A stretch of 64,000 nt of DNA from an uncultured Spirochaetaceae bacterium (lineage in GTDB: Bacteria > Spirochaetota > Spirochaetia > Sphaerochaetales > Sphaerochaetaceae): NCBI GenBank assembly GCA_944389975.1, contig CALXOH010000046.1, forward strand, positions 1 to 64,000, read 5' to 3'. Within the stretch, counting starts at the first letter, position 1. Each line of letters begins with the position of its first letter. Both the position numbers and the translations under genes were made by a program. This document shows, one piece after another, positions 26,736-40,237 of this stretch. Under the pieces are notes generated by a model, which did no database searches, was not told the DNA's origin, and worked only from the letters and a program-made list of their open reading frames with translations.

Positions 26736-26769
26736 GCACCTTCTTCCCGATATGCCCTATTGCTCTCTT

Positions 26770-27458
26770 ATTTCTATCCACGCTCTCGCGTAGAGAGCGA
26801 CAAACTCTGAGCCTGAAAATTTGCACCATCAACAATTTCTATCCACGCTCTCGCGTAGAGAGCGACATATCTTCTCTCATCAGCTTGAGAGGCCATGTTA
26901 TTTCTATCCACGCTCTCGCGTAGAGAGCGACGGCCAAAGCTGTATCAACTCCTGACAACATCTCCATTTCTATCCACGCTCTCGCGTAGAGAGCGACTGT
27001 TTAAAAATGCACATCTCCAGCTGGGTAACTGGATTTCTATCCACGCTCTCGCGTAGAGAGCGACGCAAGATTGAGATGAATGGTATCAATGTTGATTGAT
27101 TTCTATCCACGCTCTCGCGTAGAGAGCGACGAACAGTGATTATGCTGTTGCCTCAAAGCTGTTATTTCTATCCACGCTCTCGCGTAGAGAGCGACAGGTT
27201 CGATAATCATCAATGAAGATTGTGTATTATTTCTATCCACGCTCTCGCGTAGAGAGCGACGGTTTAGAAAATTTAGTTCTGATTCTCAAAAAGATTTCTA
27301 TCCACGCTCTCGCGTAGAGAGCGACATCAGGATTACAGCGGTAAATATTGCCCGCATAATTTCTATCCACGCTCTCGCGTAGAGAGCGACAAGATTGGAA
27401 CAGACGTATTACCCGGGACAGTACAAATTTCTATCCACGCTCTCGCGTAGAGAGCGAC
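26770..27458 (-). CRISPR. Type I-C CRISPR array, 11 perfect repeats
   Basis: Eleven identical 32-base repeats start at 26770, 26835, 26900, 26966, 27033, 27099, 27164, 27229, 27294, 27359 and 27427. On the minus strand each repeat begins GTCGCTCTCTACG and ends GCGTGGATAGAAAT, the type I-C pattern, with a six-to-seven base-pair hairpin in the middle. The spacers between perfect repeats are 33-36 bases long, and a further 34-base spacer separates the first perfect repeat from the degenerate copy. Transcription runs on the minus strand away from cas2, with the leader at about 27459-27610. No spacer matches anything obvious in this window. Confidence 0.98.
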
Positions 27459-27610
27459 AGCTTTTATTATACAAAAACTCTTTAATTTGTCTAATTACCC
27501 CTACTCTAACTATTCCCAAAAAGCATTTGCATACTGACAGCGCAAATAAATCTTACGTTTTTCCAGTGCGAACCTAACGCATTTTAAAGATCATTCCATG
27601 TTCGCACTGC
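27459..27610 (-). promoter_or_regulatory. CRISPR leader with an inverted repeat next to cas2
   Basis: This AT-rich stretch lies between the last repeat and the cas2 stop. On the minus strand, CAGTGCGAAC (27609-27600) is followed 26 bases later by GTTCGCACTG (27573-27564), forming a perfect inverted repeat. A GTTCGCACTG-type inverted repeat near the cas2 end is a recurring feature of type I-C loci as I remember them. It could be a terminator, an RNA structure or an integration-host site. Confidence 0.65.
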
Positions 27611-27904
27611 TCAAATGATCAATGTATCTTTCTCTAAATTCACGCTGTCATCTTTACCATATCTATCGATACGGTTTTCATAATTATTGCCGAGATTATA
27701 AAAAATCAACTTATCATTTTTCCTATCTATGAGATTGAACAATCTTTCTTGAAAAATTCGTTTTTGCATAGAATCAATAAAACACTCAAACACGGAATTC
27801 TGAACCCGATGGCCGTACTTCATACATTCTTTTGCTACTTTTCTAAGGCGACTTTTGCCTGCAACATCTTCAGTTTTGACGTCATAAACTACAATTATCA
27901 ACAT
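27611..27904 (-). CDS. cas2: CRISPR-associated endonuclease Cas2
   Basis: 97 residues. Cas2 forms the integrase core with Cas1 during spacer capture. The ferredoxin-like fold shows IIVVYDVKTED (with the Asp) at the N-terminus and SVFECFIDS in the middle. It follows cas1 by a 3-base gap and lies nearest the array, as usual. Confidence 0.93.
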   Translation of the reverse strand: MLIIVVYDVKTEDVAGKSRLRKVAKECMKYGHRVQNSVFECFIDSMQKRIFQERLFNLIDRKNDKLIFYNLGNNYENRIDRYGKDDSVNLEKDTLII

Positions 27905-27907
27905 ACA

Positions 27908-28939
27908 TTATTTCCATAAAAACGGTGGATATTCATCCAGATCGCCCCTTATGAATCGTGCAAGAAGTAAAGACTGAACATACGGAACCAGTCCCCATTG
28001 GATCTTTTCACTCAAGAACGGATGAATCAACTGCTCCTGCATCCTTTCCTGCCAATGCTTGAGAAATATACTTCGACCGTCATCATTCAAAAACACTGCC
28101 CCATCTTTCATAAAAAGAAAATGTGTCTTGTTTATAACTTTGTTATTTATCAATGTCAGTACAAATCGATCAGCCAAGGAAGCTCTCAATTCCTCAACCA
28201 AATCAAGTGCAAGGGAATATCGTCCAGGTCTGTCGCGATGCATGAAGCCCACATACGAGTCAAGCCCGACACTTTCCAATGCTGATGAACATTTTGCAGC
28301 AAGAATCGTATAAGCAAATGACAACAAGGCATTGACGGGATCCATAGGTGGCCGCCGTGTCCGAACTTCATATTTGAAATTATCCTTATTGGTCAAAATC
28401 AACTCATCAAAGACGGAGAAATACAAAGAGGAATTAATACCTTCCACTCCTCGCAATTTCTCTTCATCCAATATATTTCTTAAATCAGGTAAAGCACTTT
28501 TAAGCTTATCTGAGACTTCTTTTACCCGATCTTTATCGATCTTATCTGCATGGTCCCTTAGTCCCCGTTCCAATACCCATCTGGCATTATAGATCTTTCC
28601 GAAGATGAAGTTTCTAGCAATTCCACATCGCTCTTCCTTATTATCTGCAATGCGATATTGCTCCCTACGCAAAAGTACATTGCCATTATTTTCCCCTACT
28701 ATTCGGGCCAGGAACTTTCCATTTGGCTTACAGAACGTCAAGCCTATTTGTCTTTTTGCACACTCCCCCATCAATGACGGAGAAGCTCCATAATAAGAAA
28801 ACACAATTATGTCTGAAATACCATGCAAGGGGAAACGCCCGATCTCTTCATTGTTTCTATTTGCTACAATATTTTCCCCATCCAATGAAAGATATGCATC
28901 CTTACTTGTGACATATAATGTGTTCAATAGATGCTTCAT
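27908..28939 (-). CDS. cas1: CRISPR-associated integrase Cas1 (type I-C)
   Basis: 343 residues. Cas1 inserts new spacers into the array. The catalytic residues are E166 in RGVEGINSSL, H234 in GFMHRDRPGR and D246 in SLALDLVEE. The ATG at 28939 overlaps the cas4 stop (ATGA), with GGGAG upstream. Confidence 0.96.
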   Translation of the reverse strand: MKHLLNTLYVTSKDAYLSLDGENIVANRNNEEIGRFPLHGISDIIVFSYYGASPSLMGECAKRQIGLTFCKPNGKFLARIVGENNGNVLLRREQYRIADNKEERCGIARNFIFGKIYNARWVLERGLRDHADKIDKDRVKEVSDKLKSALPDLRNILDEEKLRGVEGINSSLYFSVFDELILTNKDNFKYEVRTRRPPMDPVNALLSFAYTILAAKCSSALESVGLDSYVGFMHRDRPGRYSLALDLVEELRASLADRFVLTLINNKVINKTHFLFMKDGAVFLNDDGRSIFLKHWQERMQEQLIHPFLSEKIQWGLVPYVQSLLLARFIRGDLDEYPPFLWK

Positions 28940-29595
28940 TCAAATTCTCCCGTCCTGGAGTCCATATAGGATTTCACATCACCATGAGATAAAGTCGGCA
29001 AACACGAATCATAAAAAGAACAACTATGACAACCCTTTCGCAGATCGGGTTTCGGAGTGGTACCTGACAAATAGATCTCATGCATTTTTACAAAAACCCG
29101 TCTTACTTCGATTTTTAGTTCTTTGGAGAATGTAATTACATTTCGCCGTCGTATCGCATTATTGTAAATTGCACCAGATGGTATATTAGTTTTGAACATC
29201 TCCTCAAGACACATGGCTTCAGCACAAAGTTGCAACATGGATGCGGAATTCAAATCACCTTTACCTCTTTTATATTCGATCGGGAAAACCGACCAATATC
29301 CAGCTTGACCCGGGAGAGTAATTCCTTTTTCCACTCTATGAAACTCTACAACATCACATTCACCAGAACATCCAAGGTCGCGGGAAGCAACTCGCAACCC
29401 GCGGACAATAATCAAATCGTCAGATATTTCGACATTGTTTTCATTATGAGCACGCTTATGAATCAATTGACCATCAATAGTAAGAAAATTATCAACCCAT
29501 TGATTTTCAATGTGTATCAATGCCCACTGCCTTGGACAGAACTGAAAATGCTGAATGCCCGAGAGCTTCAGGTATTCATCTTCCTCATAGGCCAT
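28936..29595 (-). CDS. cas4: CRISPR-associated Cas4 exonuclease
   Basis: 219 residues. Cas4 trims pre-spacers and helps choose PAM-matched ones. It has the RecB-like core (ECDVVEF, FPIEYKRG) and the four-cysteine cluster: one Cys near the N-terminus (HFQFCPRQWAL) and three near the C-terminus (GCHSCSFYDSC). The start is the ATG at 29595 (GGAGA seven bases upstream); TTG codons just before it are not needed. It overlaps the cas7 end slightly. Confidence 0.94.
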   Translation of the reverse strand: MAYEEDEYLKLSGIQHFQFCPRQWALIHIENQWVDNFLTIDGQLIHKRAHNENNVEISDDLIIVRGLRVASRDLGCSGECDVVEFHRVEKGITLPGQAGYWSVFPIEYKRGKGDLNSASMLQLCAEAMCLEEMFKTNIPSGAIYNNAIRRRNVITFSKELKIEVRRVFVKMHEIYLSGTTPKPDLRKGCHSCSFYDSCLPTLSHGDVKSYMDSRTGEFE

Positions 29596-30472
29596 CAACA
29601 ATCTCCAGCTTCAATCCGGGCAATTCATCGAGATGGATATCGTAATCATCAACACTGGAAGGAACCTCCACCCCTTCTTTCAGTGAGATCGAGACAGATC
29701 GGTGAACTTTTGCTGAAGAATATTGTCCCAACGGACAATTATGTTCCCACCAGAAAAGTTTGATTACCTCCATGGATCCCTCGGGCCGTGCGGAAGAAGC
29801 ATCATTGACAAACAGCGTCTGCAAACACTTCTTCAAGATCATCGCATCATCATGAGTAAATCCGGTTTTGGATGCAAGTTGGGAATTTATCGAACCCTTT
29901 ACCACATACAGGCCAAAACCTATCATATGCTTTTTTCCCATGGTATCAGAACCCTTCTTATCTTCTGAATCACTGCCATTTACACTTCTTACGATCTGTA
30001 TGGTTTTTACATCGACGGGGGAAACGCTGTTGACATATTGTATGGTTACCGGACCACGGATTCCGATGGAATCCCCTTTCGCATTATCAGTCTCCTTATC
30101 TCCCTCTTTTTTGGACTTATACGCAAAAACCTGTCCGAACGCCCTAACATCCAACCACTCTGAACATGCTTTTTTCGCAATCTCATCCTGACTAAGCTTA
30201 CTCTTGCCTTTGCCTTCCATGAATAATGCATTGTATCTTTTAGCCAAGCTTGAAGCTCCGTCATCAGATCTATCTGAGGATTGGACAAAGATCTTGTATC
30301 CAAGATCCTGCATTCGATTCCTTATCTTCCTCTTTATGCATACATCCGATATTTCCCCGATGTCATTATAATCCGTACGAGGGCGGTTGGCATTCAATGG
30401 ATCACCATTCGGATTAGCGTTCCTAACGGAAACAAGCACTTCAAAATCAATCTTGTTCAAAACTTCACTCAT
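29585..30472 (-). CDS. cas7: CRISPR Cascade backbone protein Cas7 (Csd2)
   Basis: 295 residues. Six or seven copies form the crRNA-binding backbone of the Cascade complex. The N-terminus FEVLVSVRNANPNGDP is the signature of Csd2/Cas7c, and the typical Csd2 patterns (RAFGQVFA, KHRSVSI-like) follow. Overlaps the cas8c end by eight bases. Confidence 0.95.
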   Translation of the reverse strand: MSEVLNKIDFEVLVSVRNANPNGDPLNANRPRTDYNDIGEISDVCIKRKIRNRMQDLGYKIFVQSSDRSDDGASSLAKRYNALFMEGKGKSKLSQDEIAKKACSEWLDVRAFGQVFAYKSKKEGDKETDNAKGDSIGIRGPVTIQYVNSVSPVDVKTIQIVRSVNGSDSEDKKGSDTMGKKHMIGFGLYVVKGSINSQLASKTGFTHDDAMILKKCLQTLFVNDASSARPEGSMEVIKLFWWEHNCPLGQYSSAKVHRSVSISLKEGVEVPSSVDDYDIHLDELPGLKLEIVDGL

Positions 30473-30860
30473 CTTCTTTGCACTCCTTAACTTCTTTCTT
30501 ATCCGGGTTATATCTCAAGTCATTGAGCTGCTGGTAATATCCAAGCAAATACTCAGGCTTGAGTGGTTTATTCAGTTCGTTTCCATCATTTGATGGCAGA
30601 AGGGAAACAACCTCACCTATGAGATTTTTGAAAAATACCTTTCTTGCATACGGCATGGAAGCAAAATACGGATGTAACTGTCCTTCCAAAATCATCCAAG
30701 CTTTCATCGGACTACGCGTAAAGTACTCGAAGAGCCTTAATGCGTTGGTCTCCTTATGCTCATCTTTTGACTGAAACGTAGAACGTTCAGCCCAATCCGC
30801 TATTGCCAGTAACCTGCCAAATAGATAACTGGTATTCCGGTTTGTCCTATCAAGATTCAC
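30465..30860 (-). CDS. cas11c: Cas11c small subunit from an internal start within cas8c
   Basis: Inside cas8c, on the minus strand, AAGGAGG (30875-30869) is followed eight bases later by an in-frame GTG (30860). Translation from it would give a 131-residue protein beginning MNLDRTNRNT and continuing SYLFGRLLAIAD. This matches the known practice in type I-C systems, where the small subunit Cas11c is made by independent internal initiation in cas8c and starts in just this region. The ribosome binding site is stronger than that of cas7 or cas8c itself. Evidence is entirely from sequence. Confidence 0.75.
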   Translation of the reverse strand: MNLDRTNRNTSYLFGRLLAIADWAERSTFQSKDEHKETNALRLFEYFTRSPMKAWMILEGQLHPYFASMPYARKVFFKNLIGEVVSLLPSNDGNELNKPLKPEYLLGYYQQLNDLRYNPDKKEVKECKEDE

Positions 30861-32285
30861 TCCATAAACCTCCTTTTCATGTTTATCATTAATGAATTTT
30901 CGTATTACTGAGGTGGCAACAAAAAGCAGTTGTTTGCGATTGAATTCTGAAAACGCATACAAGCTTTTTGCCTTTTCCCAGATTGCCGATACTATTTCCA
31001 ACGGCATCGAACGACCTTCCACGACACACTGTACAAGGGACTGCATCATGTTCCTTTTAAGTTTTTCTTCATCCACTACGAATTTTTCATCTCGTTCGGT
31101 ACCAAAAGCAAATTTAATCATCGTTTGCAACGTTGGAGAACGAACAGCACTCTTTCCTCTCGAAAAGTATGGCATGCAGAGTGACATGTACCACTTACTT
31201 ATGTTTTCCAAAAATTGCGATCCCGTAATTTCCGTGAAATAAGTAATGGACAGCCTGCCTTTTACCGGAGCTTCCAATGAAGCAATCACTACATTATCCT
31301 CTTCATTCAAGTAATTCTCTTTGCCATATAGGGATTTATATAGCTTCTCTTCATATTGCCTGTAATTACAGGATGAAGAGTCTTGATCGCTACCAGATAA
31401 ATCAGTCAGTTCATTATCTATCCCCTTATCATCGAAGAATCTTGGAACGGGTTTGTTATTGGTTGCCCAACATGCAAAGGCCCTACCGGATACAATGACT
31501 TTGAAATTATTGAAACAATATCGCAAAGCCGCATGTATCTTCTGTGATGTATCGTACCCAATAGCAAGGCATTCATCCTTGTCTATGAATCGTCCACGGT
31601 ATGTGAAATTCTCATTGTCGTTTGCCGAAATCAACTTTGCATTTGCGGAGAAATTAACTACATTCTTCCTCTGTGCCAAACACTTTGGTTCCAACTTTCC
31701 GGAGATGTTGCTGACAATGCATGGATACGTTTTCTCAAGAACAGATCGGTAATACTTGATCCACGAATCAAATAACGTCGTATCACGCCAACACTCATCC
31801 GGGCTTTTATCTTTTGTATGAACAATCCAACGTATGAACGCTTTGTCAGTTACCACATTGCCCAAATCTGCCTTTTCCAAATCGCTACGCAATGTTTCTT
31901 TCTTCAAATATTCATATACGGCCCTTATCTTCGGATGAGAAAACTCAGAATCTACCCATTTTCCCAAGTTCGCCATATATTCTTTGTATTTTTCTTTTCC
32001 GCAAGGATCCAAGTATTCCAATTTATCACAGAGTGCATGGGGTACTCCCTTACTTGTCCGATTTGCAGAATCGACTGTATCTGGAGCTATCGTCAAACGA
32101 TTTTCTTCATCATCTTTCAAATCCCTGCATCCTCGAAATTCGCCACGAGACGAGAGAGTCACTTCAATGTCAGCATTATACCCCCAGTGGTAGATCGGAA
32201 ACAAAGGCTCAATCCCTTCCTCGAATACGCCTACCCGATCCATCAAATTCTCATATGTCTCATATGCCGCATCAAACAAACTCAT
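30465..32285 (-). CDS. cas8c: CRISPR large subunit Cas8c (Csd1)
   Basis: 606 residues. Cas8c recognises the PAM and nucleates the R-loop in type I-C Cascade. It is recognised by length, position between cas5 and cas7, and family patterns such as GRAFACWATNNKPVPRFF and YFTEITGSQF (quoted in part). The C-terminal 131 residues can be made as a separate protein (see Cas11c). AGGAG lies seven bases before the ATG and the start overlaps the cas5 end by 14 bases. Confidence 0.92.
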   Translation of the reverse strand: MSLFDAAYETYENLMDRVGVFEEGIEPLFPIYHWGYNADIEVTLSSRGEFRGCRDLKDDEENRLTIAPDTVDSANRTSKGVPHALCDKLEYLDPCGKEKYKEYMANLGKWVDSEFSHPKIRAVYEYLKKETLRSDLEKADLGNVVTDKAFIRWIVHTKDKSPDECWRDTTLFDSWIKYYRSVLEKTYPCIVSNISGKLEPKCLAQRKNVVNFSANAKLISANDNENFTYRGRFIDKDECLAIGYDTSQKIHAALRYCFNNFKVIVSGRAFACWATNNKPVPRFFDDKGIDNELTDLSGSDQDSSSCNYRQYEEKLYKSLYGKENYLNEEDNVVIASLEAPVKGRLSITYFTEITGSQFLENISKWYMSLCMPYFSRGKSAVRSPTLQTMIKFAFGTERDEKFVVDEEKLKRNMMQSLVQCVVEGRSMPLEIVSAIWEKAKSLYAFSEFNRKQLLFVATSVIRKFINDKHEKEVYGVNLDRTNRNTSYLFGRLLAIADWAERSTFQSKDEHKETNALRLFEYFTRSPMKAWMILEGQLHPYFASMPYARKVFFKNLIGEVVSLLPSNDGNELNKPLKPEYLLGYYQQLNDLRYNPDKKEVKECKEDE

Positions 32286-33003
32286 TCGAGAACTCCTTCT
32301 CTACTTCCATAACGGAAGTATTCAGCCCGAAGGCCTTCATCGATTCCTTTCTGATTGCCCTCGTGTCTGAACAATATTCCGGGCGAGGAAAATCCAATAT
32401 TCCGTTTCTCAATATTGGATGAAAATACCTTATAGACATCGTATTTGCTGTTTCTTTCGAATAAGCCTCATCAGGATAGGTTATTCCGTGATACATATAG
32501 CCGTAATCAAGTTGCGATATGTTATCGTAAAACCCTTCGCCTTCCCCGAATATGCAAGGCTCGACATAGGCCTGACACTCCCTGGTTCCGAGAAAGACAT
32601 CCCGTCTTCCTCCCTTTTCCAAAGATCGCTTGGCCATCGACCAATGCTTGTTCTCATTCCTGTCATTCTCAAGTTCCGGCCTATTATAATTCCATTCGAA
32701 ATGAGCACGTACCTGATAACGGCAATCTTTGAGATACGTATAGAATGAAAGGTCGTTCCCTTTTTCTGCGTATTTCAGAGGACGAATGCCCTTGACCTCC
32801 GTTTGAATGGGATTCATTATCCTGACCTGGTCTACTATCCAAATGATCGTAGGCTTCCAATATATTGAAGAAACAATCCCTTTCAACGCCTCATATGTAG
32901 GAATGTGATATGTACATTTCTCCCCTCCAACCCTGGTCAAGGGATCGGTAAACATGGCATATCTACCGTATACTTCGAATTCTATGATGTTTGCATGTTC
33001 CAT
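32272..33003 (-). CDS. cas5: CRISPR Cas5c, crRNA-processing subunit
   Basis: 243 residues. In type I-C Cas5c both cleaves the pre-crRNA and caps the 5' handle. Recognised by the opening IIEFEVYGRYAMFTDP, YEALKGIVSSIYWKP and the RECQAYVEP segment. GGAGG lies eight bases before the ATG. Confidence 0.94.
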   Translation of the reverse strand: MEHANIIEFEVYGRYAMFTDPLTRVGGEKCTYHIPTYEALKGIVSSIYWKPTIIWIVDQVRIMNPIQTEVKGIRPLKYAEKGNDLSFYTYLKDCRYQVRAHFEWNYNRPELENDRNENKHWSMAKRSLEKGGRRDVFLGTRECQAYVEPCIFGEGEGFYDNISQLDYGYMYHGITYPDEAYSKETANTMSIRYFHPILRNGILDFPRPEYCSDTRAIRKESMKAFGLNTSVMEVEKEFSNEFV

Positions 33004-33006
33004 TTC

Positions 33007-35403
33007 TCACACCTCCAGGAACCCAAGCGGTTTTTCCGAAACATCCAATCCTATTTTATCCGAGTAATATTCACGCGCAATGGAAAATACCGACATCGAT
33101 TTAATTTCAGAAAGTTTACCATCGGTACATAACTCATTAGCTAAAGGCTTGAATACCGATACAGAATATGCTTGCGCTTTTCTTAGAAGCCGTTCCTTCT
33201 CATCAAACGCCCACTCAGACAAGGAGCATAGCTTCTCAATCAAATTTGCCCCCTCTCCATATGGAACAAGAATCTCGACCGTATCGTCTTCGAATACCTT
33301 GAATTCACTACATGCTGACTTGAAAGCTTGCGAAAGAAAATATTCATCTGAATTATTCTTTAGAGCACTCCATAGTTGATTAGATGCAAGCAATCCATAA
33401 AGATTCGTTTTGTATTTCGGAGATGGATATTTCGTTGCATTGGCATTCAACCCTGAATACAACTTGTAGAAATAAGTTTCTATGGCATCCAAAGAATCCA
33501 GGCTCTTGTCTTCGTATTCATCAGCTACTGCCATAAATGCTTTCTGTGCCCGGGCTATATCGTTCAATCCTTTTAGGTTTTCATTCTTCAAGTTGACGAC
33601 AATAACCTTTCCCCTGTCTTCACTCTCTCCATTTCTATTACACCTACCTGCTGTCTGAATAACGTTATCCAATCCCGCAGTAATTCTAATTACCGTTCCA
33701 AATGAAATATCGACGCCAGCTTCGATAAGCTGAGTAGAAACGCAAACCACAGGTTCTTCAGCATTCAATGAATTTCTGATGTCTTCCAATACCTTCCGCC
33801 TATGGGCCATGCACATATCGGTCGATAGATGGAACAGCGTTCCGTTCCAAAATGACGATATTTCCTTGTAAAATCCTTTTGCCTCCTTTCTTGTATTACA
33901 TACCAAGAGAACGCTTTTACTCGATTCAGCCTCTTGAATGGCCATTAAAGAGATTTCCTCCATAGTCCACCCATATGGATTATTCTTGTTGATTATTTCT
34001 GTACGTTTGAACACATTCCATAAGTTCTCGTCATACCTGATGATATCCGGCGCGGGAGCATACTTTATTCCCTGCGCAGCACCTTCCACATATTCCAATG
34101 CGGGTAGCGTCGCCGAACTCAGTATTACAGTGCAGTTACAGCTGTATGCAAGAAAATTCAAGACCATGTTGAACAATGACAACATCTTCACCGGAACGGT
34201 TTGTACTTCATCAAACACAAGTACTGAATCGGAAAGGGCTGCAAAACGTCTGATTTCAGACGTGCGGAACCCAAATGATGCCTGAAGGAATTGGAACAGC
34301 GTCGTAATGACTATTGGTGCTGTCCATGATTCCCCGAATAGATGTTTTTCATCAAATTCCTCGTCAGTCTCGACGTCGATATCATCTTTCTCTTTCTTAT
34401 CATCCTGAACCAGATTGGAATGGTGTTCCAATACAATGGAAGAATCACGGACGTGACTTTTTATCACAGCAGCGTTCTGTTCCAATATGCTCAAAAGTGG
34501 AATTACAAAGAAAATCCTACGTTTGCCTTGACTTGCCAGCTTCAGAGCCAAGCGCAATGAAGAAAGCGTCTTTCCCCCTCCCGTCGGAATGTTCAATCTA
34601 TATATGCCATTGCTGCCATTGAATGCAGCAACCATATCGGAAAACGCATGGCGTTTTTCATCTATTTCATTCCTACATGGAAGCTTTCTGATCTTATCCT
34701 CGAGAAAAGTCAGTTCCTTGTTCCAATCCACTTCATTGGAATGAGACTTAGAACTATTTCCATCTTTCTTCATGAAATCCGAAGTGTCTTTCCTATCCCC
34801 GTCTATTACGGCAGACAGTACCATTCTGGCAATCAAACCTACGACAAACGCCATGTTTTCTTTCTTGGTCTCATTAACTCTAACATCTCGCAGGAAATCC
34901 TTGATCTCCGTTGCAGCCTCCATAAAGATCTTTTCAACTACATCCTCAGGGAGTACACACTTGAAGAAATTGTCTTTGCCCTCGTTATATTTTTCTTCAT
35001 TGAAGTTCAACCGATGAAGAAAGCCATCCATTCCAGATTGATCGAAAACATCAAAAAGCCCATGATGTGCACCAATTGCATAAGCAATCAACTCGCTGGT
35101 TAACTTCGTATCATTATCAGAAGAAGCGTGCCATTTGAATAAAACATACTTTACGCCGGTAAATGAATGTATGACTTTCTTTCTATTTCCAGTCTCATTT
35201 TCAGACGATCGTATATACTCACAGAACTCTTCAGTGCATTTCCCCATATCGTGGAGCAATCCAGCCAAATATGCAGTCCTGCTCAAATTCTTCAGAATCG
35301 ATTCTGATGCATATTTTGCACACCCCTCGGAATGTTCTTTCACCGTCTGATTAATTACTTCGCCTGTTTCTGTCACTCTCAAATGTGCAATGAATTCATC
35401 CAT
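33007..35403 (-). CDS. cas3: CRISPR-associated nuclease-helicase Cas3 (HD plus helicase)
   Basis: 798 residues. Cas3 is recruited to the R-loop and degrades target DNA. The N-terminal HD nuclease shows LLHDMGK (His51-Asp52) and AHHG; the helicase has Walker A PTGGGKT, DEVQ as motif II, SSATLP as motif III and QTAGRCNRNG as motif VI. The ATG at 35403 has AAAGGA six bases upstream; a TTG at 35418 would overlap that site. It is the first gene of the cas operon. Confidence 0.95.
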   Translation of the reverse strand: MDEFIAHLRVTETGEVINQTVKEHSEGCAKYASESILKNLSRTAYLAGLLHDMGKCTEEFCEYIRSSENETGNRKKVIHSFTGVKYVLFKWHASSDNDTKLTSELIAYAIGAHHGLFDVFDQSGMDGFLHRLNFNEEKYNEGKDNFFKCVLPEDVVEKIFMEAATEIKDFLRDVRVNETKKENMAFVVGLIARMVLSAVIDGDRKDTSDFMKKDGNSSKSHSNEVDWNKELTFLEDKIRKLPCRNEIDEKRHAFSDMVAAFNGSNGIYRLNIPTGGGKTLSSLRLALKLASQGKRRIFFVIPLLSILEQNAAVIKSHVRDSSIVLEHHSNLVQDDKKEKDDIDVETDEEFDEKHLFGESWTAPIVITTLFQFLQASFGFRTSEIRRFAALSDSVLVFDEVQTVPVKMLSLFNMVLNFLAYSCNCTVILSSATLPALEYVEGAAQGIKYAPAPDIIRYDENLWNVFKRTEIINKNNPYGWTMEEISLMAIQEAESSKSVLLVCNTRKEAKGFYKEISSFWNGTLFHLSTDMCMAHRRKVLEDIRNSLNAEEPVVCVSTQLIEAGVDISFGTVIRITAGLDNVIQTAGRCNRNGESEDRGKVIVVNLKNENLKGLNDIARAQKAFMAVADEYEDKSLDSLDAIETYFYKLYSGLNANATKYPSPKYKTNLYGLLASNQLWSALKNNSDEYFLSQAFKSACSEFKVFEDDTVEILVPYGEGANLIEKLCSLSEWAFDEKERLLRKAQAYSVSVFKPLANELCTDGKLSEIKSMSVFSIAREYYSDKIGLDVSEKPLGFLEV

Positions 35404-35422
35404 ATCCAATCCTTTCAATTAG

Positions 35423-35628: not shown

Positions 35629-38364
35629 ATGAGCGATGTAGAAAGCCTTTTCATAGATGATATGCATCTGAAGGGGGATGATGAAGCCCCGAAGAAAGAC
35701 AGGGAAGAACTGATTCGGGAATTAGATGCTGTGGAAAGTAACATTACTCAAATTCTTGAAGAACTCAGAGTGCTTGAAGCCAAGAAGAAAGAACTGCAAA
35801 ACGCAATAAAAGATATGGAAAGCATTAGCTCAATCACCCCTTTGAAGCATACTTCTCCGATAATATCCAAGAGTTCCACGACGATTGAGAAAGCAACATT
35901 CCTACTCGATCTCTTTTCTCCACGCATCGATGTGTTTGCAACCAGGGGAAAAGGCAAAGACGGGAAAACTGTCTATTACCCGAAATGCAAGAATTTCTGG
36001 AGTGAAGGATGTTTCAGACGAGATAGCGGAAACAAGACAAAATGCAGTGAATGCAAAATCAACGAAAGAGCGGAACTTTCGTATGTGGAGATAATCAAAA
36101 ACCAATTCAGAAATACAAATCCGGAAGGAAATGGTGCGATAGGAATCTACCCGCTCAAAAGTGGCAACGTTACAAGGTTTCTCGCCATAGACCTGGATGA
36201 AGCGGACTGGAGGGAAAGTGCACGGACAATACTTGGAAGGGCACGCGAAATCGGGATTGCAATGGCTGCAGAAAGAAGTTTCAGCGGAAACGGTGCACAT
36301 CTTTGGATTTTCTTCGCGGAAGATATACAAGCAAAAGAAGCAAGGCGGCTTGGATTATTGTTAATCGATAGAGCCAGGGAGGCAAATCCGAATGTAAGCA
36401 TGTCTTCATATGACAGGATGTTCCCATCCCAAGACACCCTCTCAGGGAAAGGTTTCGGCAACTTGATACTCATGCCCTTCGTGGGATCAGCCTCGGAGAG
36501 AGGATGTACGATCTTCCTTGACGATGGTCTGGAACCTTACCCACTTGAAGATCAAATGGAATACATATCATCGATTCAACGCCACGATAAAACCGAAATA
36601 AATCACTTCATCAGGCTTCTTTCAGATGATGACTTCAAACTTCAATCACCATCAAAAGATGAGATGAACCCGTCATGGCGGACAATCCTTCCGAAAATAG
36701 GGCCAAACGACATCAGAGCACCTTTGATAATTTACCACTCCTCCGGATTGAGCATCGACAAGCACTCTCTATCGGAAAAGGCACAAGAAGCTTTACGTAG
36801 GCTTTCCACTATCTCAAACCCCATATATTACAAAGAGCTGGCAAAAAGAGACGGCAAGGTATCGGATATCAGCTCCCGAATACCCCTTTTTGAAGAAAAC
36901 GACCGGGTAATAAAACTTCCTCGGGGAATGCAGGGTTCACTTGAAGCATATCTGACTGAAATGCACATTCCATACAAGGAAGAGGATCACAGGGTATGCA
37001 ATACAGGCTTGGATGTAAAACTTCTCAAGGCGCTCAGACCATACCAGAAGATCGCAGTGGAATGCACGGATAAAGCTGACTACGGAGTCATCTCTTCTGC
37101 TACAGGATCGGGCAAGACGATGATCGCAATGGGTATCATCGAAAGGAAAAAGGAACGAACGCTTATCATCGTCCATACCCTTGGTTTGGTTGATCAATGG
37201 AAGAGGGAACTTGAAGAATCTTTTGAGATCCACCCGGAAATAGAGATAAGAAAAAAGAGAAGGAATAAAGATCTTTCCAAGATAGGAACGCTCGGAGGAA
37301 GCAAAGGCGAGAGACTAGGCAAAGTGATCGATATAGCTACCATGCAATCACTTTTACCAATGCTTGAGAGAGGAAAGAATGATATAGCCTCCAGCTATGG
37401 TCTTGTAATCATCGACGAATGCCATCACATTGCGGCAGAGAACGCGCGAAGAATACTAAGTTATATGAATGCCAGGTTCGTATATGGCCTATCTGCCACA
37501 CCGAAAAGGAGCGATGGGCTTGAGAGGATCCTGTACTCAGAGCTAGGTAATATCATATTCAAGTATGACCACGCTGAAATGATAAGAGAAACCGGAATCT
37601 CTCAGAAATTCATCGTGCGTTTCATACAGACATCCTGTTCTTTGGATATGGAAAGATTGAATTTCCAAGAAACACTCCATACGCTCTCAACGGACAAGAA
37701 ACGGAATGAAATCATAGCTGATGATATAAAGAAGGAATTCAGAAACGGGCGTAGCATACTTGTACTTACCAGGCGGATAGAAGAGAACAAACAGATTGCA
37801 ACATGCCTTGAAGAGCGGGCAATCCAATGTATAGCGCTAGATGGAAATCTCAAAGCAAGTGAAATAAACGAAAAGATAAAGTCAATCGCCAGTTCAAATG
37901 TTCGTGCAGTATTGGTAGCAACCGACAAACTACTGGGGGAAGGTGTGAATATTCCCCATCTTGATACCCTTTTCCTCGCATCCCCTTTCATGCAGGAACA
38001 ATCAATACAACAGTTTGCAGGCCGCATCTCGCGTAGTTTCGAAGGAAAGAAAGATACTCTGATCTACGACTATGTCGACTATCTCGTCCCGAGATTGAAT
38101 TTCATGTATCTGAAAAGGTTGTCGACATATAAGAAACTTGGATATACTCCGTTGTCCAATACGCGTACGCCGTACCAAGAGGTTGTCTACGACGACATCT
38201 CATTCGAGACCCAATTCCTCGCAGATTTGAAAAGAGCACGGAAAGAGATTTTTATTTCATCCACGTATATCACGACATCAAAACTCACCCGGGTCATCAT
38301 CGAAACGCTCAGGGAAAAGAGCAGGCAAGGATTGTCCATTATTCTAAGACAAGGGAAAATATGA
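35629..38364 (+). CDS. TOTE-type primase-helicase, truncated at the C-terminus
   Basis: 911 residues. A predicted coiled coil (20-65) is followed by a four-Cys cluster (C120, C128, C139, C142), an archaeo-eukaryotic primase domain of the TOTE type with FLAIDLDEADW and SGNGAHLWIFF, then a superfamily 2 helicase: Walker A ATGSGKT (about 491), DECHH (597-601), LSATPKRSDG and QFAGRISRS. The C-terminus enters a phospholipase-D-like fold (from about 850) but stops at SIILRQGKI. TOTE proteins are conflict-system modules proposed to act on invading DNA. The rest of the PLD-like domain is in the next frame (38361-38600). AGGAG lies upstream of the ATG; the gene is divergent from cas3. Confidence 0.85.
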   Translation: MSDVESLFIDDMHLKGDDEAPKKDREELIRELDAVESNITQILEELRVLEAKKKELQNAIKDMESISSITPLKHTSPIISKSSTTIEKATFLLDLFSPRIDVFATRGKGKDGKTVYYPKCKNFWSEGCFRRDSGNKTKCSECKINERAELSYVEIIKNQFRNTNPEGNGAIGIYPLKSGNVTRFLAIDLDEADWRESARTILGRAREIGIAMAAERSFSGNGAHLWIFFAEDIQAKEARRLGLLLIDRAREANPNVSMSSYDRMFPSQDTLSGKGFGNLILMPFVGSASERGCTIFLDDGLEPYPLEDQMEYISSIQRHDKTEINHFIRLLSDDDFKLQSPSKDEMNPSWRTILPKIGPNDIRAPLIIYHSSGLSIDKHSLSEKAQEALRRLSTISNPIYYKELAKRDGKVSDISSRIPLFEENDRVIKLPRGMQGSLEAYLTEMHIPYKEEDHRVCNTGLDVKLLKALRPYQKIAVECTDKADYGVISSATGSGKTMIAMGIIERKKERTLIIVHTLGLVDQWKRELEESFEIHPEIEIRKKRRNKDLSKIGTLGGSKGERLGKVIDIATMQSLLPMLERGKNDIASSYGLVIIDECHHIAAENARRILSYMNARFVYGLSATPKRSDGLERILYSELGNIIFKYDHAEMIRETGISQKFIVRFIQTSCSLDMERLNFQETLHTLSTDKKRNEIIADDIKKEFRNGRSILVLTRRIEENKQIATCLEERAIQCIALDGNLKASEINEKIKSIASSNVRAVLVATDKLLGEGVNIPHLDTLFLASPFMQEQSIQQFAGRISRSFEGKKDTLIYDYVDYLVPRLNFMYLKRLSTYKKLGYTPLSNTRTPYQEVVYDDISFETQFLADLKRARKEIFISSTYITTSKLTRVIIETLREKSRQGLSIILRQGKI

Positions 38365-38600
38365 TTCAAAATAAAGCATACAAAGCATTCAGAGAGCTGA
38401 CATTTGATATAAATATGGGATACGAGACATATGGAAATGCAAAGAATTATGCACTCATTGATGGAGAAATCACGTGGTATGGAGATTTCAGCATCCTTGC
38501 ATCTAGTCAGAAAACGAGGGAAAGTGAAGAAAGGCACAGCATCATCAGACTGGAGAACGAACGGATTACGAAGAATTTCAAGGACGACATTTCGCTATAG
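38361..38600 (+). pseudogene. Detached C-terminal part of the TOTE protein (frameshift)
   Basis: Seventy-nine codons in the frame one base behind the primase-helicase frame. The frame is open upstream into the overlap, so a one-base slip (for example in the AAAA at about 38356-38359) would join the two. The content YALIDGEITWYGDFSIL is the second half of a phospholipase-D-like repeat. The catalytic His and Lys of the HKD motif appear as Ala/Asn, so the domain was probably not an active PLD nuclease. The putative ATG (38361) overlaps the upstream stop (ATGA) but has no ribosome binding site. Confidence 0.7.
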
Positions 38601-38641: not shown

Positions 38642-40237
38642 ATGAAGAAGATAGCAACCGGGAACCCGTCATTTCCATCCTTGATAAAGAATGACTTTGT
38701 TTACGTAGACAAGACAAAGTATATCTACGACCTGTTGGAAAAAGGTGACAAGTTCTTCTTTATCTCCCGTCCAAGGAGATTCGGCAAAAGCCTCTTCTGC
38801 TCCACTCTGGAAGCGCTATTCAAGGGAGAAAGGGATCTCTTCGAGGGATTGTATATCGACTCAACCGATTACGCTTTCACGCCCTACCCCGTACTACATT
38901 TCGATTTCAGCAACTTTGAAACGAGAACAAATGATGATTTTCTTGCTGCACTTGAAAATGAGATCAAAAAAGCAGCTGCGGTATATGACGTTAAGACCAA
39001 AGGCCAAATGCCAAGTCTGATGCTCGATAATCTCATCAATGACATATATTCCCAAGAAGGGAAAGAGGTCGTAATGATTATCGATGAATTCGATTCCCCC
39101 GTCATAGATTCATTGGATAAGCCTACCCTCTCATTCATCAAGGAAGTTTTCCAGAATTTCTATGCAACAGTAAAGAAAAATACAGAAAAGATCAGGTTTT
39201 TCTTCATGACCGGGATTACCAAGCTTTCGAACATGTCGATCTTCTCGAAGATGAACAACCTCGTTGATCTGAGCATGGATGATGATTTTGCCTCCCTTTT
39301 CGGATACACGGATGACGAATTGGATGAATACTTCAGCTTCTACCTTGAAGAATGCTTTGAAAGAAACAAGGAAACATATCCTACGTATCCGTCAATGCTC
39401 GATGCAATACGAACATATTATGATGGGTATCGTTTCTCAGATTACTCGAACGTTTCAGTCTACAATCCAGTCTCCATCGGATATTTCATCACCAACAAAT
39501 TCAGATTTCAGAACTACTGGGAACTTACTGGACTTTCTACTCTTGCCGTAAAACTTGCAAAGAGATACAAACTATCCGAGCTGGTGATGGAAGAGCAGCT
39601 GGTATCAAAAAGCATATTCACATCATTCGATGTATCTCTTCTTGCCGATGCAGAGCTTTCAAAAAAGAGTGTTCTCGCCCTGTTGTACTACACCGGGTAC
39701 CTGACGATCAGGAAAGCACTCGACGGAGGGGTTGCCCTGGGCTTTCCGAACATGGAGATCTCTTCTTCCTTCACAGAATCCCTGTCCCTCCTCTACTCCG
39801 ATGATTCATCAGAGACCGGAGACATGATCATCGAAGGAAAGGAAGCTATGGACAAGGGAGAAACGGGAAAACTTGTTGAAGTCCTCTCTGAATTCTATGC
39901 AAACTGCTCATCCCAGATAATACGGGAGAGGCTTGAGAACCCGTACCATCTGATATTCCACATGTTCTTCGTCGCACTGGGAGCGCGCATATCATCCGAG
40001 GAAGGCACGCTCAAGGGACGGATAGACACTGTAGTTGAGAAGAAGAACACGATATACATAGCAGAGCTGAAGGTTGACGAGAGTGCAGAAAAGGCACTTG
40101 CCCAGATCAAGGAAAAGGGATACGGAGAGAAATACAAGAAGAAAGCTGAAAGGCTTGGAAAGAGACTTCACTTACTTGGAATCAACTTCTCATCAAAAGA
40201 GAGAATGATCTCAGACTGGATGGAAGAAATACTCTGA
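38642..40237 (+). CDS. AAA-ATPase-like/PD-(D/E)XK nuclease-like protein
   Basis: 531 residues with two known parts. The N-terminus matches the AAA-ATPase-like family with a modified P-loop RPRRFGKSLF and a Walker B of VVMIIDEFDSP. The C-terminal third matches a PD-(D/E)XK fold: GRIDTVVEK and IYIAELKVD supply the Asp and Glu-x-Lys. Such fused proteins occur in many copies in anaerobic gut bacteria and may be defence or mobile-element proteins. Function is unproven. It follows the TOTE pieces on the same strand, so the island continues here. Confidence 0.75.
   Translation: MKKIATGNPSFPSLIKNDFVYVDKTKYIYDLLEKGDKFFFISRPRRFGKSLFCSTLEALFKGERDLFEGLYIDSTDYAFTPYPVLHFDFSNFETRTNDDFLAALENEIKKAAAVYDVKTKGQMPSLMLDNLINDIYSQEGKEVVMIIDEFDSPVIDSLDKPTLSFIKEVFQNFYATVKKNTEKIRFFFMTGITKLSNMSIFSKMNNLVDLSMDDDFASLFGYTDDELDEYFSFYLEECFERNKETYPTYPSMLDAIRTYYDGYRFSDYSNVSVYNPVSIGYFITNKFRFQNYWELTGLSTLAVKLAKRYKLSELVMEEQLVSKSIFTSFDVSLLADAELSKKSVLALLYYTGYLTIRKALDGGVALGFPNMEISSSFTESLSLLYSDDSSETGDMIIEGKEAMDKGETGKLVEVLSEFYANCSSQIIRERLENPYHLIFHMFFVALGARISSEEGTLKGRIDTVVEKKNTIYIAELKVDESAEKALAQIKEKGYGEKYKKKAERLGKRLHLLGINFSSKERMISDWMEEIL

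Follow-up and report, generated by a model that had tools for sequence, protein, structure and literature searches.

This locus raises the question of why a gene for a primase-helicase stops midway through its C-terminal PLD-like domain, with the rest of that domain continuing in another reading frame. The gene lies in a window of 64,000 nucleotides (positions 1 to 64,000 of contig CALXOH010000046.1, here C46) from the draft genome of an uncultured Spirochaetaceae bacterium (GCA_944389975.1; 1.95 Mb in 51 contigs, 97.7% complete). The original prediction left three options: a recent pseudogene, a programmed frameshift or two subunits. The first is the best supported, by unbroken relatives, by the lack of a recoding site and by a split that is not conserved. 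We put the probability at about 0.6 that the gene suffered a single recent and non-programmed frame change, a relative shift of -1 about halfway through the PLD-like domain, and that this is a real lesion.

The arrangement as predicted, a primase-helicase of 911 residues followed by the remainder of its PLD-like domain over 79 codons of the next frame, was borne out by open reading frame (ORF) coordinates and by homology. Its parts, in coordinates of the window, are as follows.

35629–38364, forward strand: primase-helicase ORF of 911 amino acids with a coiled-coil-like N-terminus, from ATG at 35629 to the stop TGA at 38362–38364
35890–36606, forward strand: AEP-TOTE primase domain (PF22548), residues 88–326
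37030–38142, forward strand: superfamily 2 (SF2) helicase, residues 468 to about 838, with Walker A GSGKT, DECHH, SAT and QFAGRISR
38143–38360, forward strand: first half of the PLD-like domain up to the frame break, residues 839 to about 908, including the strand that matches E61-67 of the structural model of a relative (locus L081)
38361–38600, forward strand: second half of the PLD-like domain, 79 amino acids in the -1 frame, with ATG at 38361 and TAA at 38600

The two ORFs share the bases ATGA, in which the start codon of the 79-residue frame overlaps the stop codon of the 911-residue frame, and the second frame is -1 relative to the first.

That the two frames once encoded one chain is indicated by the relatives. 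In unbroken relatives the final 80 or so residues are homologous to the 79-residue frame (7.6e-9 for genome G023, 1.3e-5 for G058, 3.5e-5 for G016). Among 197 related genomes, 24 gave a strong match, and the nearest copies (48% identity in G016, 46% in G023, 44% in G041, and 42% in both G058 and G095) are single ORFs of 979–1003 amino acids from the start codon that run continuously through the junction; the full-length homologues of about 990 residues that had been anticipated are thus present. Scanning genome contigs with an alignment returned 80 relatives where a scan with a single protein returned none. In a wider family set, full tails follow the helicase in 68 copies. Homologues ending at the same residue as the 911-residue protein had been named as the observation that would speak against the original prediction, and no complete tailed relative naturally ends there (0 of 68). 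Because the unbroken relatives, from the same genus and family, read through the junction, the split is not a property of the family. At least 15 copies, and several more that were missed by our simple classifier, terminate naturally just past the helicase, around window residue 840, and such tail-less versions of 785–860 amino acids constitute a natural class. Contig edges aside, the only other copy that ends inside the PLD-like domain is found in G068, a single-contig genome (L044, G068:C1 near 1311600). Its frame break is independent, and its tail continues in another frame (3e-15) that has no ATG near the break. In-frame stops interrupt further copies in G009, G149, G191 and G201 and at loci L104 and L115; breakage of this gene is frequent, which is what one would expect of genes of a mobile or defence type. 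Plasmid and viral searches returned only distant relatives, at no more than 34% identity among the matches listed.

Whether the break could instead be programmed, or apparent only, has to be judged at the junction itself. The frames overlap by 232 nucleotides, over which the tail frame stays open, and the heptamer GGGAAAA stands just before the stop of the first ORF, so that -1 frameshifting in a fraction of products might be imagined to join them. The phase of this heptamer is, however, wrong for -1 slippage, and the overlap contains no in-phase heptamer of the form X XXY YYZ. Transcriptional slippage would call for a long homopolymer, but none of five or more bases occurs near the junction, the longest in the overlap being five T far upstream. 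RNA folding at the junction and downstream of it is unremarkable (fold z = +0.47), which leaves no stimulatory element, and the relatives have no need of recoding. The slip in the AAAA at about 38356 that had been proposed as the mechanism was therefore not confirmed, the run being only four bases long; programmed frameshifting, for which site, structure and conservation in relatives all failed to appear, was rejected and is extremely improbable. An error in the consensus or assembly, with an intact true gene encoding one protein of about 990 amino acids, deserves more attention. In a draft of 51 contigs there is no second copy to confirm the junction base, and both halves look fully coding. 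Codon usage of the tail in its own frame scores 0.278, where real genes reach 0.219 ± 0.081 and wrong frames about -0.38. Tail identity to five relatives is 23% as compared with 30% among the relatives, and the helicase shows a similar deficit (44.6 for the window copy, 49.8 among relatives); a coding-like tail of slightly lower identity fits either a recent break or a consensus error. Against an error stand the ABC_tran domains of the same genome: all 62, amounting to about 27 kb of coding DNA, are covered over their full length and show neither a break nor a stop. Indel errors are thus not common in this assembly, and the site itself is only a four-base run. We regard a consensus error as unlikely and infer a genuine mutation, with a tail that is not a subunit by design.

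The option of two subunits holds that termination and reinitiation at ATGA yield a 79-residue polypeptide that supplies in trans what the PLD-like domain lacks. Such coupling could physically make the tail peptide: a weak Shine-Dalgarno sequence (AAGG, a 4-base match) lies a few bases upstream of the second ATG, overlaps of 4 nucleotides occur at genuine operon junctions of the same genome (dctQ/dctM and cas4/cas1), and the tail frame is intact and coding-like. The arrangement is nevertheless not conserved, as the relatives are single ORFs and the broken G068 copy offers no nearby start codon in its tail frame, and the cut bisects a single small globular domain. Random lesions also produce such junctions, ATGA having arisen in 12.5% of the single-base deletions simulated over 18 window genes. 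On balance two designed subunits seem improbable. Some observations do weigh against a recent lesion. ATGA together with a Shine-Dalgarno sequence of this kind was obtained in just 4.2% of the simulated deletions, so that the junction suits reinitiation somewhat more closely than one would expect of a random lesion; no strain-level copies were found; and the breaks in the window and in G068, although independent, are both to the -1 frame and lie no more than about 10 residues apart. Chance suffices to explain the ATGA and Shine-Dalgarno junction, if not comfortably. Were the split functional, with the ATGA-coupled second half acting in trans, the G068 break would mark a point at which splitting or shedding of the tail is tolerated, but we consider this a long shot.

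A recent lesion also has to be separated from an older change in the same domain. The PLD-like domain of the window protein was not recognized by Pfam. PLDc_2 was found in three of the four relatives tested (4.8e-14 and 2.9e-13, the canonical ones including that at 4.8e-14, and 2.7e-10 at L081), and the fourth, L030, which is the nearest relative (from G016), scored 0.021, below the Pfam cut-off. An AlphaFold model of the L081 domain (predicted local distance difference test score 87.7) matches NucT, Nuc and Zucchini, with a TM score of up to 0.71 to NucT. By way of the alignment of window and relative, the break maps just past the central strand E61-67 of this model, leaving about half of the domain in each ORF. 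The HKD region of the window copy aligns as AKNYALID, in which the Asp is kept and the His and Lys are absent, as had been predicted. The unbroken copies L030-L036, from the same genus or family, likewise lack the HKD His and Lys; the loss is therefore independent of the frame break, and its interpretation as decay of the window copy was rejected in favor of a clade-wide trait. The HxKxxxxD motif is kept in 26 of 70 family sequences, mostly from other phyla. The family thus comprises tail-less forms (about 785–860 amino acids), tailed forms with canonical HxKxxxxD and tailed forms in which the catalytic residues are lost. NucT, Nuc and Zucchini/PLD6 are single-domain nucleases of the PLD superfamily that share the fold of the relatives' C-terminal domain; the clade of the window differs from them in lacking the His and Lys of HxKxxxxD, and the window domain is also split in two. 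Judged by these residues, the domain is expected to be catalytically dead in this clade, and no nuclease activity would be expected from it.

The remainder of the protein is well preserved. The AEP-TOTE domain matches PF22548 at 2.7e-64 (217 bits against a cut-off of 27), which places the protein in that family, and the primase catalytic residues D188/D190, H224 and D262/R263 are invariant in the alignment with relatives. Pfam also detected ResIII (9.4e-28) and Helicase_C (2.1e-11), and the Walker A, Walker B, SAT and arginine-finger motifs of the helicase are all present (GSGKT, DECHH, SAT and GRISR). The PADLOC PrimPol model PDLC01465 matched at 3.2e-58; the NCBIfam model PrimPol_Msp matched far under its cut-off (62 against 200 bits). 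The gene is an ordinary member of the known family that joins an AEP-TOTE PrimPol, an SF2 helicase and a PLD-like domain. Members of the tailed subclass carry the PLD-like domain in one chain, as the relatives do; in the window gene it is divided between two frames.

Two named systems invite comparison. TOTE conflict systems are defined by TPR, OB, TBP and Effector genes (PMC12458937), and the TOTE label given in the original prediction holds for the primase domain, a clear PF22548 member, but not for a system. No PF00352 (TBP) match was found anywhere in the genome, and the locus should therefore not be called a TOTE system; a TPR or cold-shock/OB partner was absent from the scanned adjacent genes (cas genes, AAA-ATPase_like, and TRAP transporter/dehydrogenase genes), the rest of the genome not having been searched for one. 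Among CRISPR-associated Prim-Pols (CAPP), a Prim-Pol with a helicase corresponds to CAPP_A type 3 ('CAPP-Helicase'), and the helicase architecture is the most prevalent one among non-CRISPR homologues, typically in mobile elements (PMC8211822). The window gene shares this architecture, but the published link is operonic with cas1/cas2, whereas in the window the gene and cas3 of a type I-C operon are transcribed divergently, and in the closest relatives no cas gene lies within about 10 kb.

The surroundings of the gene in the window are these.

27611–35418, reverse strand: complete type I-C operon cas3-cas5-cas8c-cas7-cas4-cas1-cas2
26768–27470, reverse strand (by inference from the cas operon): the 11-repeat CRISPR array of this I-C system
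38642–40237, forward strand: AAA-ATPase_like/PDDEXK_9 gene, downstream of the primase-helicase

Between the primase-helicase and cas3 there are 210 bp; cas1 lies about 7 kb away. Shared regulation with cas3, suggested on the strength of the divergent arrangement, found no support: promoter-like sites numbered 6 as against 6.5 in shuffled sequences, and the gene pair is not conserved. Rfam gave no match. The window Cas proteins had no blastp match in the neighbourhoods of 20 relatives, and of the 36 family-bearing genomes only the window's own and G349 have Cas1 within 10 kb of the gene; in G384 and G068 it lies within about 17 kb. A CRISPR partnership was rejected, as the closest relatives do not share the cas neighbour, and the adjacency is probably incidental, arising from the clustering of defence genes in islands. 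G349, from another family of the class, has a complete type I-C operon with a 10-repeat array (L160, G349:C12:100000-119900) and a full-length primase-helicase (1068-aa ORF) about 3 kb beyond the array on its other side, a layout that differs from that of the window. Two CRISPR arrays, of at least 28 and at least 32 repeats, flank the G068 gene, and cas1 genes are found at a distance of 12-16 kb.

Other neighbours in the family's surroundings include Schlafen AlbA_2, type I restriction-modification, RloB and AbiEii-like ATPase genes. At L040, L041, L044 and L049 a gene belonging to one and the same cluster is found repeatedly, only a few genes away from the primase-helicase; the two tested carry Schlafen AlbA_2 with HATPase_c_4. 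In G016 and G009 the primase-helicase is directly preceded by a SWIM zinc-finger protein of about 539 amino acids and a small DUF6429 protein (L030:10234-12136 and L037:6875-8755; Pfam was run on L030), which are possible recurrent partners. The AAA-ATPase_like/PDDEXK_9 gene belongs to a multi-copy family and has a 49% identical counterpart directly after the primase-helicase in G016 only. Elsewhere in the window's genome, a second AAA-ATPase_like (PF09820) copy (G000:C15:11194-11853) carries an in-frame TAA.

To judge from its domain families, the intact protein of the relatives most likely works on DNA that is foreign or under replication. The helicase would translocate along or unwind this DNA, the primase would make primers or fill in, and the catalytically dead PLD-like domain of the clade may bind nucleic acid or partners. 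The main product of the window copy would be the 911-residue primase-helicase with half a PLD-like domain; some residual function is possible, because members that naturally lack the whole domain are common. The adjacency of the gene to a CRISPR system should not be taken for a functional connection. Although the finding matters little by itself, it indicates that the degenerate PLD-like tail in this PrimPol-helicase family is both a trait of the lineage and a site where breaks occur. A functional split, if true, would provide a small example of a domain turning into a separate subunit.
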